A model generated the notes under the pieces. The model was not told where the DNA came from and did no database searches. It was given only the letters and a program-made list of their open reading frames with translations. A stretch of 64,000 nucleotides of DNA from Cavenderia fasciculata. Lineage: Eukaryota > Evosea > Eumycetozoa > Acytosteliales > Cavenderiaceae. The DNA is taken from assembly GCF_000203815.1 (NCBI RefSeq), contig NW_004457639.1, forward strand, positions 310,001-374,000, written 5' to 3'. Within the stretch, counting starts at the first letter, position 1. Each line of letters opens with the position of its first letter. This document shows positions 52,332 to 63,080 of this stretch, one piece after another. Made by a program: the position numbers and the translations under genes.

Positions 52332-54903
52332 TGGGATTTCCACAAACAAAAAGAAAAGAATGATGATAACAATAACAATAACAACAAAGACAGTACTAGT
52401 ACTGTCAAGAGTATCACAAAACAAAGATTCAAAGACATCTTAGAGTCTACACCAGATAAAGTAGTATCATGGTTACTCTATTTAATTGTAAATGGTACTT
52501 GTAAACATGTATGTAATTTATTATAATCGAGATCACCTTTGCAATTTACTTACTTTACTGTTGTCATTAAAGAGAAATCAGTACAGTTTCTTGATAAATT
52601 ACTGATTAAAAAAGGTGATGACTTGATCAAAGAATTGTTACTGGATGATAACAGTCGAGTTGTTAAAGACAAATCATACAGTTGTTTTTATCGGTCATTT
52701 ATTTAGTATCATTCAAACAATTGCTCTCTTTTTAATTCCTAAAGGTATGCATGTTTAAATTGATACTTTTACAATTTAATTAATGTGTATTATTTTATTT
52801 TGATTTGGTCTGTAGGTCTTTGGAATGAATTACAACCATCATTGGTGGAAATTGTAAATCGCGAAGAAGAGGAAGAAAAAGAAGAGGAAGGATCACCATC
52901 ACCATCACAATTAAAAGTAAATACATTATCATTACTATCATTGTTGTCAAAGTATGACTCTAAAAAGGCAAAACTAGAAACGTTGGTCAATGAGATAAGC
53001 TCTGGTGTATTGTCTGATGATCAGTATCGATCATTATTTCCCGATCTATTGTCAATGCTTCCAATCATCGAAAAGACTGAAGGAGAATATTTTAAAAAGA
53101 TTGTGGTCGCTCTAAACAAATATCTATACAAACGAGAATCCAAATTGGATGCAAGAATTCATTTTACCAATCATTAACACGTTAATAGAAGTATTGGATA
53201 ATAATCGTGAAAATGGATTCTCTGTAAATACAAAGGGTGTGGTTTATAATTCTTGTTGGATATGGTCGAGAATGATGAAAACAATATTTTTACCAACAGT
53301 CATCTTGAAAGAATCGTGTCACACTTGTACGAATGGATGGTGATTCAAGTTGAGGATGTATCAGTGGAAGAGTGGACTGATAGCGACTACTGTACAGACA
53401 ATCAAGGTAGTATATTCAACATAAATAGCGAGGAAGAACGTGACCTTGGTATCCTCAAGACAGACTTTGATCAACAAATTCCAGCCGATTCGAATTTTGA
53501 ACGATTCGTTGGGTCGATTGGTAACCATGTCGAAATACAACAATCCATTTACGATCAATTCTCCATCCTAGTAAACTCTCAAAAATGGAATGAAAGATAT
53601 GCTAGTTTGATTGCTTTGTCTAAATTTACTAGATTTATCATTGATATTGTTACGCAACAACTTCCATTTATTTTAAAGTATGTTAAATAATAATAATAAT
53701 AATAATAATATTTATTTAATTAATTATTTATTGATTTATTTAATTTTATTTATTTGTAGTTCAATATTTAAATTAGTTGAAGATGAAAATATAAGAATCA
53801 GATGGGCATCATTACAATGTTTAATTCAATTATTTATACATATGCAAGAGATGATTGGTTCAAAAGAAAAGGTATACCAAGTTTTGATCAAATCAATTTA
53901 TGATCCAAATGAACGCATACAAATTAGTTGTTGGTTGTTACTTCAAACAATGACAAATGTATTGGAAGCAGATATGATAGCAGATACTGATTTGCAAGTA
54001 TTATCAAGTTTGTTTGAAAAACTTTTACAATCACAAAAGTTATATGTCGTTGAAAGTGCATTACCTTCATTCATGTCTCTTGTTTCTATTGCTAAAGAAA
54101 GATTAAACCCTGTATGTTAATATAAATATATTCAACTTTTTAAAATATTAATCAATTTATTTCTATTATTTATTAGTATTTTGGAAATATTATTCCAATA
54201 CTATTATCAGTGTTGGAAAAACATCAAAGTATTGGAACAAAAGAATCAAGAGTATTCAGGTGTCGTGCAGTTAAAGCATTTGCTTTGTGTGGTTTGGTGG
54301 TTGACAATAATACATTTTCAACATACTTGAACAAGTTTATGATGTTTGTTAAAAAGAATCAAGGTTCGGTTGATTTAGCAGTTGATATTACAAGAGCATC
54401 ATATTCATTTATTCAAACGGTTGGTAATGAGTTTGCAGTTTATTCACCAATGATTGTCAGGATGGCTGTCAATGTACTAGAGATACCACTACCCGACCAA
54501 GAACAAGACATGCGTGCATCGTCACGACATAATGTCAAGAAAATAATGTCGACCCTCACAGGATTGAACAACCTTATTCAGATTTGTATTGATTAGGGGA
54601 TGTCATAAATTACGTGACACCGAAGGATCCAATGCAATCAAGGCTAGGATCCTCTCATTTATGCATAGTTACTGCAAGTATGGTGGTGAGTTGGCTATCA
54701 ACTCTTTCCCACATATCATACCTGCCATTATCGAGTGTCTGACATATACGAATAACATCTCACGTATTGCTGCATCTACACTAAAAGAGGCAGCACAAAA
54801 TGCCAAAGATAGATTCTCACCTTGGGCCATCATGATCCTACACACTCCCAACAATGTACCGCCCAACTCTACCACTTTGACCCTTTTCTGGCAGAGAGGA
54901 TGA
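52332..54903 (+). pseudogene. Importin-5 (karyopherin beta-3)-like pseudogene or broken gene
   Basis: Pieces in changing frames resemble IPO5 in order: KSITKQRFKDILESTPDKVV, SVQFLDKLLIKKGDDLIKEL, GHLFSIIQTIALFLIPK then GLWNELQPSLVEIV after an intron, LVENDE-type acidic region DVSVEEWTDSDY, SQKWNERYASLIALSKF, ENIRIRWASLQCLIQLF, and YFGNIIPILLSVLEKHQ. Introns near 52745-52815, 53690-53760 and 54113-54178 still look functional. No in-frame ATG opens the first segment, the frame changes near 52700, 53150, 53250 and 54580, and the match stops at about 54903, well short of the roughly 1100 aa of IPO5, so the C-terminal HEAT repeats are missing. A real IPO5 elsewhere in the genome is expected. Assembly error explains single shifts but not the truncated ends. 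Confidence 0.75.
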
Positions 54904-55328: not shown

Positions 55329-56816
55329 TTAATTCAAGTTAGATTCCATTAATCTATTCATGATTGTTTTGGAAGGTAGTTTCAACCATTTTGGTAATTC
55401 TTTTTGATTTGGGAGAATTTTCATGGTAATAATGTGAAATTGATTCCCAAGTTGACATTTGATTTTACCAACAATAAATCTGCCATGAATGGTCACACAA
55501 CACAATATTTTTTGAATTCGAGCCATCATATATTTTTACCAATACAAAGTCCATTTTATCGAATTGACAAAATCTATAGATATTTGAGTTTGATTCGTTC
55601 TTCAACCACTTTTCCATTTTTTCTAATAGTTGGGTATATTGTAAGACATCGATTGGTTGTTCTTGTTCTTCCACAATAGATTTTTCACAATTAGAATTGG
55701 GGGAAAAGAATTCTCGATGTTTGAAGACGAAATCATTATCAACTTTGAGCATCGACGCATCAACCTTTAAAATGTCTTCGAGAAACAAAGTTGGTTTCTT
55801 TTTGAATTCCAAATATGAGTAAAACTCTTTGTTGAATACAATCAAAGTTTTGAAAGGATCAAGACTTGATAAAATGATTTCAAACAATAAAAACAAGTTA
55901 TTGGTTCCATTGGACTGCAACATAATCTTATCTAGGAATGTGAAGGGGATTCGAACAAGAAAAATCAATGGATTATCCAATATTGATAGTTTTCGAATAT
56001 CTCTTTCTTGGTTCTTTTTTCGTGTGTGGGAACGATCATCAATCTCCCACAATATAATGTAGAATTTGAATTCAAGGTTGCTGATAGGTTGAAGGTTCAT
56101 GTTAGAGTCAAGTCGAACCCCCAAATACCAATCCACATGCATTTGATCAAATACAGGGTACTGTGGAATAAGTTCGAAGTACTTTCTTTCGGTGTCGTAG
56201 GTTTTGATAAACATATCCAAAATCTTTCCAAATGTTATTTCTTGATAATTGACGCCATTACATATTTGACAATAACCTTTGCTACTTGATTCATGGTGAT
56301 CAGGATCTCTGCACTGAACTTGATAACTTTCACTATTGTACATGAGGTAGTCAGTGTCGATGTCGGTATCACTTTTCATGTCGCTTTCCATTTCAATGTC
56401 CATTCTGTTGTCAATATCGTTTTCTACATGCTCCTCTATCTGATATTCTACGAAATCTATACTATTATTAGGGTAGTCATAACATTGTCTGAGGTATCTT
56501 GTTACAAAATCCAAATTTTTGATACATGTCCATTTTACTTGATATATTCTATTTTGTGTCTAAAAAAATAGATTAGAATAATTGATTTCATAAAATCTTG
56601 AAATTTAAATTTAAAGTTAAGATTTATACATACAGGGTTCTCACCTCCCTCGTTTACCAAAAAACCAACTTTTTTCTTTTCCAAACCACTAGTGCCACAA
56701 TTGTCGAAAAAACTTTTTTCATCCAAAGACTTATCTCTATAGTTTTTTCCTTTATGATACCTATTGTACAGATTTAATTTTGATAAAATGTCAAGGCAAA
56801 TTCCACATACCTCCAC
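55329..56816 (-). CDS. Zn-cluster protein with Vsr-like PD-(D/E)XK nuclease signature, copy A
   Basis: Exon 56816-56634 (5' limit uncertain, no clear in-frame ATG nearby) joins 56559-55329 through a good intron (GTATGT..TTTTTAG). The first exon carries a CGICLD motif. After an acidic Asp-rich stretch comes a C/H cluster (CRDPDHH .. YCQICNG), then a segment with HVDWYLGV, WEIDDRSH, ERDIRKLSIL and PLIFLVRIPF. Asp, then E-x-D-x3-H, then R-D-x2-K and a hydrophobic strand ending in Arg is the layout of Vsr/DUF559-type endonucleases. Copy B has the same series. A long C-terminal part ends in KWLKLPSKTIMNRLMESNLN; the frame is broken once in this part. Nuclease activity is inference; no homologue name is claimed. 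Confidence 0.6.
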
Positions 56817-56818
56817 AT

Positions 56819-57162
56819 CGGTTGATTTTGGTTTTTTTTGACTTGATTGTGTTGAGGGAAAGCTTTTCTATGTTACAACCTCCCATTCATAATTAGTCAA
56901 CACTTTCAATTATGACTTCTAGGTTGACACCAATAGCAGATTAACATATCGAATATCAACAACGATCTCAGTATACACAAGACGAGGTCAGTATCAGGAA
57001 TGAAAGATCAGTCATTATCATTTTTTTATTTGTTATAATATGAACATTGATCTTTATCTTCCTCATCTCATTTGTTTTTTAAACCTAATCTACTTTGAAT
57101 CAATGATTTTTAATCACTCCCTATATTTTTAAAATAGATAGAGAGAGAGTATATATATTAAA
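56819..57162. promoter_or_regulatory. Shared interval between divergent nuclease-like genes
   Basis: About 345 bases separate copy A and copy B. It holds AT-rich DNA and GATAGAGAGAGAG just before the copy B ATG. The true 5' end of copy A may lie here. A bidirectional promoter is inferred from the layout. Confidence 0.4.
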
Positions 57163-59953
57163 ATGGAGGAAAACACCCTTAAAAGGAAATCAGAACATCA
57201 GATCTCTAGAAAAGAAAAAGAAGAAGAGAAAGAAAGTGATGAAGAGTACGAAAGTGAAGAGGAGGTGGAAAGTAATGAAGAGATAGAGAAAAAACAGGTA
57301 GACCATCCTCCCCATCCTCACCAAGAGATTCTAAATATGTTGATGATAGAGCATGTCGAGGATATATTTCCACGATACGTAGCAGTAGGGAATCTCAAAG
57401 AGATTGAAGAAACGATCAACGAGGTTGTATTGCCAGCATTTCTCAGTTTGTTAATAAAGAATGACATCGAAAACTTTATGGAAATATTGACAGAATACAT
57501 GACGAAGGTCGAAACGAGTATTGTTACTCAATCAAAGTTATTAGAGTTGCCAGTTTGGTGTACAAGAATCAAGGATGGTTTGAATTTAAAACTATTTATC
57601 AACCACCTCAACACTATCCCAACAATTAAGGTTTTAGACATTACACACTCATCAATAGATTTTACTTGTAAGAAATGTAAAATTGTGGATAAAATAGATT
57701 CAACCCTAAAAGACCACATCAGTAAAATGGGAAAACCCAATTCTACTATCAATCAAGCTACTTTGGAATCAATTAAATTTATAGATGGAAAAAGTGTTTT
57801 AGTAATGGTAAGTTTTTTTAAATCCAATCAAAAGAGTAATAATTTACTAAAATTTTCAATCACAGGAAAAAAGTTGTGGTTGTTTGGTTTCTGTTGATAG
57901 AGCACGTATGATGTGTCAAGGTTTTCCATTATGCAATTGTAGCAAATTATGGAATGAAGAAGAAAAAAGTAAATTTATGGAAAAAGTAGAGATTTTTCTC
58001 ATAGGTTCTGGTTGTCCAGGGCTTTGGGAGAACGAAAAAGAAAGATTATCAAAAATGAATACTTTGAACCAAAAATATTCATACAGTATTGTAATGAAGA
58101 GACCATGTGGATGCATATTTATGATAGATGATTTTAGTAAACATGGGGCAGATGCCAAACACAAGTTAAATAATCCATGTAACACATGTACATACAAAGA
58201 ATCAATTAGAGAGTGGTTGGGAGTTCCCAAACTAATTGACAAGTTTAACACCTACAACAACGACAAGATAGGTTACAATTCACGAGTTTCAATCCCTTGT
58301 CCACAATGCGAATCAGAGATCAAAGTCGATAGATTGGAAATAGATAGAAATCAACAAATTCTATGTGTGAAATGCAATAACAAGGAGACATTGGAAGTGA
58401 TGGAATCTAGAGGATACAAATATGTATCGTATAATGGAGAAAAGTGTCCAATCTTCAAATTTGAACATATTATATGTGGAACTATAGTTGATCATTCGAT
58501 ACCAAACATTAATTGGACAAATGGTGATAATTTGACATACTGTTATCAATGTAGTAGTGGGGATAGAGAAAAGGAATTCAATGGTAACAAATCAATTCTT
58601 GTTTCAACTTCTGAAACTCAGTGGATTTACCATGCTAGATGTACATATGGACACGATGGTCTCATTTACAAAAACAGATCTGGTAATAAAACTCATTTCA
58701 AGTGCAAAATATGTGGATCTGTTGCCCTGGTATTAAATAAGGTTGGTTGTTTGGACAAAGAATTTGGAATGGATAGACAAAATGGGTTTTATAAAAATTT
58801 GAAGGAGGATCTATTACAAGTGTTTGATTACATGAAGTCTATTCCATTCACCATCAAATTTAAAGGAGAAACTCATACAAGTTACATTAATATTTTTACA
58901 ATTCTTTCTAGAGAAGGAATTAAAAAAATAATTCTGAAGGATTTAACAAAATCTCCTAAAAGGTAAATATAGTATTAAATTAAAGTAAACCTTTTAATTA
59001 TAGATAGTAACACCATTTTTTAGCTACAATACTTTTCAAACAAAAGAAAATGTTACACCTTCAAAATTCCTATGTGATTCAAACCACACTTGCCTACGTA
59101 GAGAGATTTGTTATCTTTGCTCTAACTCTCCATTCTTTTATGAAGTTGAACTATTAAAGGCGCTGGAACATGTGATGAAAATCGTTCACCCAGATGGGAA
59201 ATTCAAGTTTTCTCTTTCAGAAACGGTATCTCATGAAAAAGGTGTTACATTTAGATATGACATTTGTCTATTGTTGGAAGGATGGTATGGATTGAAAGGA
59301 AAGATTTCAATTGAAATGGATGAGGAACCTCATTGGGAGCGAAAAGTTACCAAGGCAAGAGATGAGAAGAAGAATGTACTTTCACCAAAAAATGGAATCA
59401 CATTGTTACGACTCAACTACAAACTCTTCACAAGCCCTTACGAATTCCAAAAATCTATTTTCAAATTGGTGCTGGCTGTCTCTAATGAAATGAAAAAAGT
59501 TTCATATTCACCAAAAGCATTTGCCTCAGACGATGACTACAAGAGCTTGAACTCAAAAACAATCTAGTGATTCTATCAAACAAACTAGAAAAAGATATAG
59601 AAGGAAATATGAAATGGAGAAACCAAGAGGACATCGAGGAGTCATTTGGAATTCCCAAACCAACAACATCTCCTGAAACTCCAGTAGAGAAGATCCTCGA
59701 AGAGTTGGGCACTTGGATTTACTTTAATCAACACAGCCAAAACAGAGAGTCATTATTTGCAAGAGTAGATGACAAATTGGTGATTTTTGTTGGGGACTCG
59801 TCAACATACTTTATCTTATCTGATGACGAAGGAATATCTCGATTCGTTGAAGGCCATTTAAGATGTAAGACCCAAATCATGATTTTTATTAAATCAACCA
59901 ACATCACGAAAAAAACTATTTTAAAGGTATTAAACAGACTCCATTTTGAGTAA
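57163..59953 (+). CDS. Zn-cluster protein with Vsr-like PD-(D/E)XK nuclease signature, copy B
   Basis: Exons 57163-57807, 57866-58962 and 59024-59953, about 925 aa. A Lys/Glu-rich head is followed by a helical region, then many paired cysteines in ribbon-like clusters (FTCKKCKIVDK, CGCLV, CPQCESEIKVDRLEI, LCVKCNNK, YCYQCSSG, FKCKICGS), some with His. At about residue 600 lies CDSNHTCLRREICYLC, equivalent to the copy A cluster, then the nuclease-like stretch: FRYDICL (Asp about 660), IEMDEEPHW (Glu 678, Asp 680, His 684), ARDEKKN (about 692-698) and ITLLRLNY. This is the Vsr/DUF559-like D..ExD..H..RDxxK..R series. The frame is broken once after this domain; a leucine-rich coiled coil and an alpha/beta C-terminus follow. 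Zinc-ribbon plus Vsr-like nuclease pairings are known in bacteria, phages and large DNA viruses; here introns and codon use are those of the host. Confidence 0.65.
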
Positions 59954-60422
59954 TTTAATACAATCCAATCCTTTTTTATTTATATTTTAAAATAAATAAT
60001 CAATATAATAAATTGTTTTAAACCATATATATGACTGGTTTTTAATATATTGTCTTGATTGATCGTCGTACTTGATTGTTATTGAGGTGGGAATTTTAAA
60101 TGGTTGTTTAGGAATGATTCGGTTTGCTGATGTCACCGTCTCACTCTCTCTCTTGCTAAATTCATTAAAGGTGCTGTCTCTGTATTGGATTTAACACTCT
60201 AATACAAACATATATAAATAAATAAATAAATTAAAATATACATATATAGAAATAAAAAATAATATATTAATGATCCCCAAAACCAAAGACTAACATACTA
60301 AAGCTAAAAACTAAACTATATAGAACCCAAAGAGGTTGGGTGTTTTGATTCTCTGAACTTTGGAGAACAGAGAATCAAAAGAATCAGTACACTAGTTTTA
60401 AATCATCACAGCAGCACACAAC
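59954..60422. other. Intergenic upstream of MIT/kelch-like gene
   Basis: AT-rich spacer with a (AATA)n tract near 60213-60230 and a strong hairpin close to the next start. No ORF or RNA gene recognised. Confidence 0.55.
60343..60380 (+). promoter_or_regulatory. Perfect 13-bp hairpin 43 bases before start codon
   Basis: TTTTGATTCTCTG (60343-60355) and CAGAGAATCAAAA (60368-60380) are exact reverse complements around a 12-base loop. If transcribed it lies in the 5' UTR of the MIT/kelch-like gene; as DNA it is a palindromic protein site. Role unknown. Confidence 0.6.
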
Positions 60423-63080
60423 ATGTCACATGAAATATTACAAACAGGATTACAACTAGCTAAACAAGCAGTTGAAGCAGACACATCAAAGCAATATACT
60501 CTGGCATCGCAGTTGTATGAACAAGCAATACTCAACCTTAAACTAGCGATTGTCAGCGAAAAGGATCCATCGAGGAATGCTCTTGTAAAGACAAAGATTG
60601 AAGAATACACAAATCGTAACAAGTTTATAAAGAATTTAGCTTCTTCTTCTTCTTCAACTAGCACAGGTGTTGGAGGTAATAGTAATAATAGTAATGCAAT
60701 ATTCAACTTTCCATCAATACCATCATCAGTATCACCATCTGTAGCCAATGTAACATACCATCAACAAATACTTATATGACTACCAGTGTTGTACAACCAT
60801 CATCTGCATCGATTAATCAATTCCCATCTGCTGGTGGTGTTGGTATGAATCAATCAACATCATTTGGTAGTACCGGTAGTTCAAATGATACTTTATCGAA
60901 ACTATCATCTATGCCATCTGTTGGTGACCAATTCTCTTCAAAGAGTACAATGGGAAGAGTAGAGGCTGACGAAGTGGCAATGGGACTGGTTTCAAAGGGA
61001 AAACGTGAAGAAGAGTTGAGAGACTACAGAAAGGCATCTTCATACTATGAACAAGCGTGTTCATACTTTTTATTGGCAATCAAGGGTGAACCTGATAGTA
61101 TCATCAAACAAAGTTTAAATGACAAGGCAAAGATCTATCTTGAAAGAGTCGAGAAATTAAAACCATATGTTCAACATCAATTACAACTTGCTGCACAACA
61201 ACAACAACAACAACAGCAACAACTTGCACAACAACAACAACAACAACAACAATCAAATTTCCCAACTTTACCAAATATTAATAATTTTGGTGGTAATATT
61301 TCATATTGGTGGCATCATTTCCAAATGTATCATCTTCTTCATCTTCATCATCTTCATTATCTGGATTCCCAACCATTGTCAATAATAATAATAATCATAA
61401 TCATCATTTATCAACTGGTTCAATTGGAAATATGTTTAGTGGTATGGGAGGAATGGGATTGTGCAAAGTTTATGGATGATGTTAAACGCCAAGAAAGAGA
61501 GATTAGATCGTTTGTATGGGCCATGCGTAATCAATTGGATGTGTTGGAGAGAAAGCTTACAAAAGACTATTCGAAGCAATCAACCTATCTCGAGAGTCGA
61601 TTACAATCAGATTATCTACAACTAGATTATTTGAATCGTTTGGTCAAGACTGTCACTGTCAATCATGGTTATGATAGCAATTTCGATGATATGCAACAAT
61701 TATTAAAACAATATCAAGATCAACAACAAGGAGCATCAACAACAACAACCACTACAACTGCTACTACAGCCAATGTCGCAGAACAAGTTGAATTAGATAA
61801 TCCAAAACCATTCTCATTAAAGGAAATGAGATCAGTCAATGATTTGAAAGCACGTGTTCAACAATTCCAAGAGTTTCAAGACTTTTTGTATAGGATGGAG
61901 TCTAAAGAGTTTGTACCGACAGCTAAAACCAACAGACACTTGGATCTAGAGATAGAAAGGGTATTCAAGGTATCACAACGTGATCCATTTACCAAACTGT
62001 CTTTTACAACTACTTCTCCCAACTATTTGGCACAATTCAAGGAGAACCTAGACTCACTCTACACACTCGAACAAAAGTTGGTCAAATCTGATGATGAAGA
62101 AGAGAAATCACGTCTCTTTGAAGAGGATCAAATAGAGGCACAAGAGACATTGGCAGTAATGGCATCACAACCATTCAAAGAGATCTATCTAAAGAGTAAA
62201 GATGATAACTCGTCATTTTGTATCTTTGACATTGAAACCAAGACACTACTAGAACACATCAACTTGGTCTTTAAACAGAAGCGTGAACGTGGACAACTCG
62301 TATCATTCCAACGTCGTTACATTTACATGTTTGGTGGTAGAGGTAAAGGTTCAGAGTCTACTTGGGAACGTTTCAACGTTGAAAAACAGATAATCGATCA
62401 GGATGGTGAATTGGGTCACGTTCAAGGTGAATGGATTGTCACTTGTACAGATAACCTAAGATATATCTACCTCTTATCAACTGTCAATAGAGATGGGATG
62501 ATTGAAAGGTTCGATACACAGACAGAGAAATTTGAAACACTCGGAAAGGTATTATACCTTCCATCGGGTGGTACTACCCAAGGTTTCTCATTTCTCTATT
62601 ATTTTAATGGCTCGATTCTAATTAAACATGAAGATGTCAAATACATGGAATCATTTGATTTAAAAACAAAGAAATCTTCAATCTATCATAAATCAACTGA
62701 TAAACCTTTTAGATGTTCAAGTCAAGTACGAAAGAAAATAGAATCAAAATAGAATCAAAATAGATTTAATTGATATTAATATTAATTTTACAAATTTGTA
62801 GGGAGTATTTGATGAAAAACAATATATTTATACGTATGGATATACAAACAAGGTATTACAAAGATTTGATATTAATACTAGAATGGTAGAGACTGTGTAT
62901 TCAGATCCAACAAATGTTCATTGTTTCAATACACATCCATTTATTTATTGTCAAGCTACCAATACCATTTATTTTGCAACTAGAAAATCAATTAGAAGTT
63001 ATAACCTAACGACCAACCAATTTTCAATGCTCTATTCAACAACTGAAGATAAATTAAGTATCTATTGTTGTGGAATTTAA
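60423..63080 (+). CDS. Double-MIT, coiled-coil, kelch-like propeller protein; frame breaks
   Basis: Two MIT-type three-helix domains are clear: HEILQTGLQLAKQAVEADTS with AILNLKLAIVSEKDPSRNAL (about 3-75), and DEVAMGLVSKGKREEELRDY with QACSYFLLAIKGEPDSIIKQ. A poly-Gln linker, a coiled coil (REIRSFVWAMRNQLDVLERK) and a propeller follow (YIYMFGGRGKGSESTWERF, YIYLLSTVNRDGMIERFDT, and after an intron at 62726-62801 YIYTYGYTNKVLQRFDI). The frame breaks once in the first Ser-rich linker near 60750-60776. It is displaced again between about 61300 and 61460, where the natural frame reads SFPNVSSSSSSSSSLSGFP. All breaks fall in low-complexity linkers while domains remain intact, so indel errors or spliced-out linkers are likely. 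MIT domains bind ESCRT-III tails, suggesting an endosomal role. Confidence 0.75.

Follow-up and report, generated by a model that had tools for sequence, protein, structure and literature searches.

Positions 55329 to 59953 of the window, a 64,000-nucleotide stretch of the Cavenderia fasciculata genome (C18:310001-374000, contig NW_004457639.1), hold two oppositely oriented genes, here named copy A (reverse strand) and copy B (forward strand), which raise the question of what kind of protein they encode and how such genes came into an amoeba nucleus. An earlier note had read them as paralogous zinc-cluster genes with a Vsr-like PD-(D/E)XK nuclease domain, and had proposed a genome-defence or DNA-repair system or acquisition by horizontal transfer. 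On balance, A and B are probably nuclear genes with introns and far diverged members of the zinc-ribbon Vsr/EDxHD group, which is best known from phage homing endonucleases.

Profile evidence for the nuclease domain

The main profile consisted of 69 rows of phage and bacterial Vsr/EDxHD domains (69 of 77 references), collected with a typed seed peptide and including no window sequence, and its invariant columns were D, E, G, H and K. From the 669 window frames of at least 40 amino acids, the 137 of at least 80 amino acids were ranked with hhalign. Exon 3 of copy B was placed first (34.7–34.8) and exon 2 of copy A, its main exon, second (31.5), and the third-ranked frame reached only 17.5. Shuffled sequences scored at most 21.8 (400 of B) and 23.3 (400 of A). 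The resemblance is beyond chance, since the two exons were the top two of the 137 frames and exceeded all 800 shuffles, and this controlled comparison places both copies, as judged from sequence, in the Vsr/EDxHD nuclease superfamily. With hmmsearch and an 82-sequence domain profile, B exon 3 was again first of the 669 frames (E-value 6e-4, 15.3 bits), above the highest of 1905 scored B shuffles (11.5 bits), and copy A did not stand out from its shuffles, 143 of 1916 of which scored as high. Similarity above the controls was thus obtained for both copies by hhalign and for B also by hmmsearch. When the profiles were lengthened into the zinc part, neither A nor B was separated from shuffles. 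The figure of 19.1 for B in the shuffle comparisons is a sum over two stretches. A second nuclease-like stretch in B (residues 524–578, 6.1 bits) was judged to be a chance match.

Library matches of B exon 3 were weak: DUF2726 of Pfam (PF10881, E-value 0.04) at 14.1 bits, under the curated cut-off of 24.7 bits, and the phage families phrog_559 (E-value 0.007) and phrog_9084 (E-value 0.059). No NCBIfam entry matched A or B exon 3. With B exon 3 as query, phmmer found nothing under an E-value of 0.12 in PDB, and tblastn no match in phages. When viral contigs were scanned directly for patterns from exons 2 and 3 of B and exon 2 of A, no relative was confirmed.

As the earlier note had stated, a C/H cluster directly precedes the D, E, H, D, K series in both opposite genes. 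The motif order is CDSNHTC..CYLC, FRYD, IEMDEEPHW, RDEKK, RLNY in B exon 3, and QCRDPDHH..CQIC, HVDW, WEIDDRSH, RDIRK, VRIPF in the main exon of A. Copy B has all five residues of the active-site series and A has E, H, D and K, the first Asp being unsettled. The elements are as follows, with conservation referring to a 71-row alignment.

59073..59120, + strand: copy B zinc cluster C-x3-H-x-C ... C-x2-C ahead of the nuclease, read from the sequence
59250..59261, + strand: copy B FRYD with first-strand Asp D660 (exon 3 D79), column at least 90% identical
59310..59336, + strand: copy B IEMDEEPHW with the EDxHD residues E678 and H684 (exon 3 E97 and H103), both invariant
59358..59372, + strand: copy B RDEKK with D694 and K697 (exon 3 D113 and K116), D113 column at least 90%, K116 invariant
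56131..56133, − strand: copy A D143, candidate first-strand Asp just ahead of the first strand of the predicted model (mean pLDDT there 59)
56026..56049, − strand: copy A WEIDDRSH with E172 and H178 (exon numbering; E99 and H105 of the trimmed row), invariant
55990..56004, − strand: copy A RDIRK with D187 and K190 (D114 and K117 of the trimmed row), K117 invariant, D114 column at least 90%

For the first Asp of copy A, model and alignments disagree, the sequence alignments placing a Lys and not D143 at that position. In the predicted structure of B exon 3, pLDDT was 81–91 over exon residues 91–150, and in a second-look PDB search the best match of the copy A model was the catalytic domain of I-Bth0305I. 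The models would back the Vsr-like reading, less independently than the sequence evidence does. Vsr itself was not among the 50 PDB entries listed per model for A or B, which is no counter-evidence.

Probable zinc modules and gene structure

Copy B comprises three exons joined over two short GT-AG introns, with a predicted protein of about 760 residues. In copy A, the two open exons are separated by a 74-base GT-AG intron (56560–56633).

57163..57807, + strand: copy B exon 1, ATG to GTAAG donor with the frame open, N-terminus Glu/Lys-rich
57866..58962, + strand: copy B exon 2, several Cys-pair modules in succession, probably zinc ribbons, with five of the seven CxxC pairs of B
59024..59567, + strand: copy B exon 3, with the final zinc cluster and the Vsr/EDxHD-type nuclease domain
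59537..59953, + strand: open frame 3′ of copy B in another phase, 138 amino acids
56868..57162, no strand: 295-base gap separating the divergently oriented open frames of A and B
56634..56867, − strand: copy A upstream open exon, 78 codons, without an in-frame start codon
55465..56559, − strand: copy A main exon, 364 amino acids open, zinc cluster plus Vsr/EDxHD-type nuclease domain
55329..55535, − strand: open frame 3′ of copy A in another phase, 68 amino acids

No Pfam family above the cut-off, and no recognised domain, was found in B exon 1. Exons 2 and 3 of B contained six CxxC pairs against a shuffle mean of 1.27 (one of 2000 shuffles as high), and copy A two (63 of 2000 as high). B exon 2 produced zinc-ribbon matches below cut-offs, to NF038384 (E-value 1.9e-4) and Zn_ribbon_5 (E-value 0.028). 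By inspection, the predicted layout of B, Cys-pair modules and then nuclease, matches the EDxHD plan; in the extended-profile and shuffle comparisons no test linked the zinc part of B to that of the phage proteins. In part of PMC3943268, EDxHD enzymes are described as combining a metal-dependent restriction-type cutting site with an extended DNA-binding part, possibly with zinc fingers. Copy B would accordingly be expected to bind DNA through its Cys-pair modules, perhaps sequence-specifically, and to cut it in a metal-dependent manner at a PD-(D/E)XK-type site formed by D660, E678, H684, D694 and K697.

The open frame of copy A begins directly behind a stop codon (56868–56870), without an ATG at its start, and lacks a counterpart of the first ca. 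450 residues of B. At best, copy A is part of a gene or a gene whose model is incomplete.

Relationship between the two copies

The paralogy that the earlier note had claimed was not visible by BLASTP of A against B (best E-value 2.6). Smith-Waterman comparison gave five aligned pieces, for which 7, 21, 59, 11 and 102 of 500 shuffles scored as high; the first four were collinear and the fifth (102 of 500) was not. Among these, the tail frame of B resembled the end of A exon 2 (21 of 500) and the tail frame of A (59 of 500), and the upstream exon of A resembled B residues ca. 478–516 (11 of 500). The sequences thus suggest, weakly, that A and B are paralogues.

Relatives in the same genome

Used as protein queries against the amoeba's own genome (30,995,898 bases, 21 contigs), exons 2 and 3 of B and exon 2 of A returned self-matches only, and relatives surfaced only with family models. 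The phrog_559 model found C16:4077-5135, C18:473571-474011 together with 474181-474573 (assumed to be one gene) and C21:1951516-1951740, and the phrog_9084 model recovered the same three genes, here named after their contigs, all three being clearer family members than A and B. The number of genomic relatives is a lower bound, because the model searches score best candidates only.

The C16 gene (region C16:2577-6635) lies ca. 4 kb from a contig end, and the C18 gene occupies the region C18:472071-475511. They share 66% identity over 200 residues, carry IEFDGQQHF- and RDLVKNQFCKNNG-type motifs, and end in acidic low-complexity tails. Both matched the phage homing-nuclease family in the nuclease part (E-values 1.6e-25 for C16 and 2.6e-22 for C18) as well as in the zinc part (5.5e-6 and 6.7e-8), and are thus clearer relatives of phage layout than the window pair. 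Pfam matches of the C16 nuclease, DUF2726 (E-value 6.6e-4) and DUF559 (E-value 0.014), were below curated cut-offs; its DUF2726 score of 21.3 bits (cut-off 24.7) was the highest in the genome search. Over 197 aligned codons the dN/dS ratio of C16 and C18 was 0.25, which indicates past purifying selection on that pair. A weak PADLOC match to PDC-S69 (E-value 5.8e-4) was located in the C18 nuclease, at positions 2018–2857 of its region.

Copy B aligned with C16 from the CxxC part to past the RLNY strand with a score of 69 (0 of 1000 shuffles as high), and one of 1000 shuffles was as high for B and C18. By this similarity B is tied directly to the Vsr/EDxHD family, and A is tied to it by profile comparison alone. 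For B and C21, 95 of 1000 shuffles were as high, and for A with C16, C18 and C21 the counts were 133, 466 and 678 of 1000. Homology of the zinc arrays was unsupported when B exons 1–2 were compared with two upstream frames of C16, whose scores were equalled or exceeded by 284 and 34 of 500 shuffles. For further study, C16 and C18 are better subjects than the window pair.

The C21 region (C21:1950016-1953240) holds a 413-amino-acid frame with a Vsr-type nuclease end, FEYQGKQHF..RDVEKR, and a different, repeat-bearing N-terminal part. Frames resembling these repeats were found at C18:1911668-1912429 and C1:1169146-1169382, the query being residues 50–163 only.

Origin and comparison with known systems

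Like the phage zinc-ribbon VSR/EDxHD homing endonucleases (phrog_559, phrog_9084, I-Bth0305I), A and B have Cys-pair modules followed by a Vsr-like D..E..H..D..K domain. Unlike these, they are eukaryotic chromosomal genes which are themselves intron-bearing; identity to the phage and bacterial profile rows is 18–34%, the loop behind the His is shorter, and a conserved Gly has been lost. The C16 and C18 genes resemble the phage family in both parts. They have zinc part and nuclease in the same order as the window pair, and B is similar to both, but they stand far nearer to the phage family, and the tree shows no common clade with A and B.

According to part of PMC3943268, EDxHD homing nucleases are mostly phage-derived. 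The C16 nuclease had 27.5 to 37.8% identity to phage records among the 15 listed of 323 matching, and in the one such record opened, Enterococcus phage iF6, a VSR endonuclease gene adjoins the terminase gene. Vsr nuclease domains are also mentioned, in part of PMC3710099, in bacterial restriction-type proteins. The motif IEVDEGHHF of AbaSI is similar to IEMDEEPHW of B, and AbaSI is the only PDB sequence that the phage profile reaches at an E-value of at most 1 (0.36, or 0.03 with A and B added). The similarity is weak, and AbaSI differs from A and B in being bacterial and modification-dependent (PDB title: 5-hydroxymethylcytosine-specific restriction enzyme). Mirusviruses, predicted to reproduce in the nuclei of unicellular eukaryotes, also have Vsr-like nucleases, which were compared by their description in part of PMC12768974: 16 VSR-like nuclease genes sit there in viral spliceosomal introns, whereas A and B carry introns and lie in an amoeba chromosome. 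In the open-licence literature, no recognised description of Vsr/EDxHD zinc-ribbon genes in dictyostelids was found.

A tree was built from 50 sequences, of which 35 came from the 69-row profile, 10 were additional viral ones and 5 were from the amoeba; its bootstrap had not settled. C16 and C18 grouped together (99/93), and B, A and C21 stood apart on long branches, because of which B and A are not placed by the tree. With these three apart and four changes required for the amoeba label, one arrival and several are both possible, and a common origin of all five genes may be considered only conditionally. By their sequences, C16 and C18 are likely to have reached the amoeba lineage by horizontal transfer, and their match to the phage family in both parts makes the earlier note's proposal of such an acquisition plausible for the family. 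Phage, bacteria or large DNA viruses would probably have been the source of the nuclease family, which would now occupy at least five genome places in far diverged form. Such intron-bearing chromosomal members, with one pair under purifying selection, would be an example of this nuclease type becoming established in a eukaryotic nucleus, and the social amoeba genes would offer a tractable system for asking what Vsr/EDxHD nucleases do there.

Alternative explanations

A less probable but serious alternative is that A and B are decaying pseudogenes of once-active nuclease genes, in which the motif remains since time or chance has been too little to erase it. In both copies the reading frame is broken near the 3′-end: the frame of B ends at 59567, with a second one, open in a different phase, reaching 59953, and that of A ends at 55465, with a second one likewise reaching 55329. 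The missing start codon and N-terminal part of A and the very long branches of both copies point the same way, as do the codon-bias scores, which for five A/B pieces were below 10 of 12 reference frames on a scale trained on those reference frames. Codon bias was dropped as proof of coding, another frame having scored higher for B exon 1 and A exon 2. Decay is countered by stop-free frames of 251, 371, 187 and 364 amino acids in a region of ca. 32% GC, by plausible intron borders, and by E, H, D and K having been retained in both copies despite extreme divergence. One or both frame breaks could stem from assembly error, as they could from pseudogene decay.

Compared with diverged Vsr/EDxHD nuclease genes, the two-gene defence or DNA-repair system of the earlier note, in the form of a domesticated nuclear nuclease pair, is unsupported and now appears improbable. 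The retained active-site residues, the purifying selection on the related C16/C18 pair and the head-to-head arrangement, in which shared control would be possible across the 295-base gap, speak for it. PADLOC was nearly empty, however: B exon 2 matched at an E-value of 0.016, and B exon 3 and A had no match at an E-value of 1; the flanking genes to which a name could be given are ordinary, one for a sterol methyltransferase and one of MIT-kelch type; copy A is incomplete, and the paralogy is weak. Hardly credible is a restriction-endonuclease fold acting in RNA binding like the RAP domain: no RAP family appeared in Pfam at an E-value of 10 or better for seven A/B pieces, the Bax1 nuclease tied at 6.9 in the model comparison, the copy A model favours I-Bth0305I, and the retained residues agree with the ones typical of the phage nucleases. 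It is a speculative and rather unlikely extension of the favoured Vsr/EDxHD assignment that zinc-ribbon EDxHD homing nucleases of phage type were acquired by a dictyostelid lineage, spread through its nucleus and were retained as host enzymes, A and B being fast-evolving, still-active site-specific cutters under shared control, directed against invading nuclear DNA or used for programmed breaks.

Neighbourhood of the pair

Many, not all, zinc-ribbon VSR homing endonucleases reside in a self-splicing intron. Between positions 54500 and 60500, Rfam gave no match at the gathering threshold, and hence no such residence was found; between 54900 and 60400 there were no direct or inverted repeats of at least 20 bases as a sign of a mobile element. 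Vsr proper nicks T:G mismatches in very short patch repair and is linked to a cytosine methylase. Pfam gave no match for three pieces of the frames immediately upstream, and no search for a methylase or MutL partner was made. The neighbouring gene with MIT and kelch parts was located at window positions 60402–62749.
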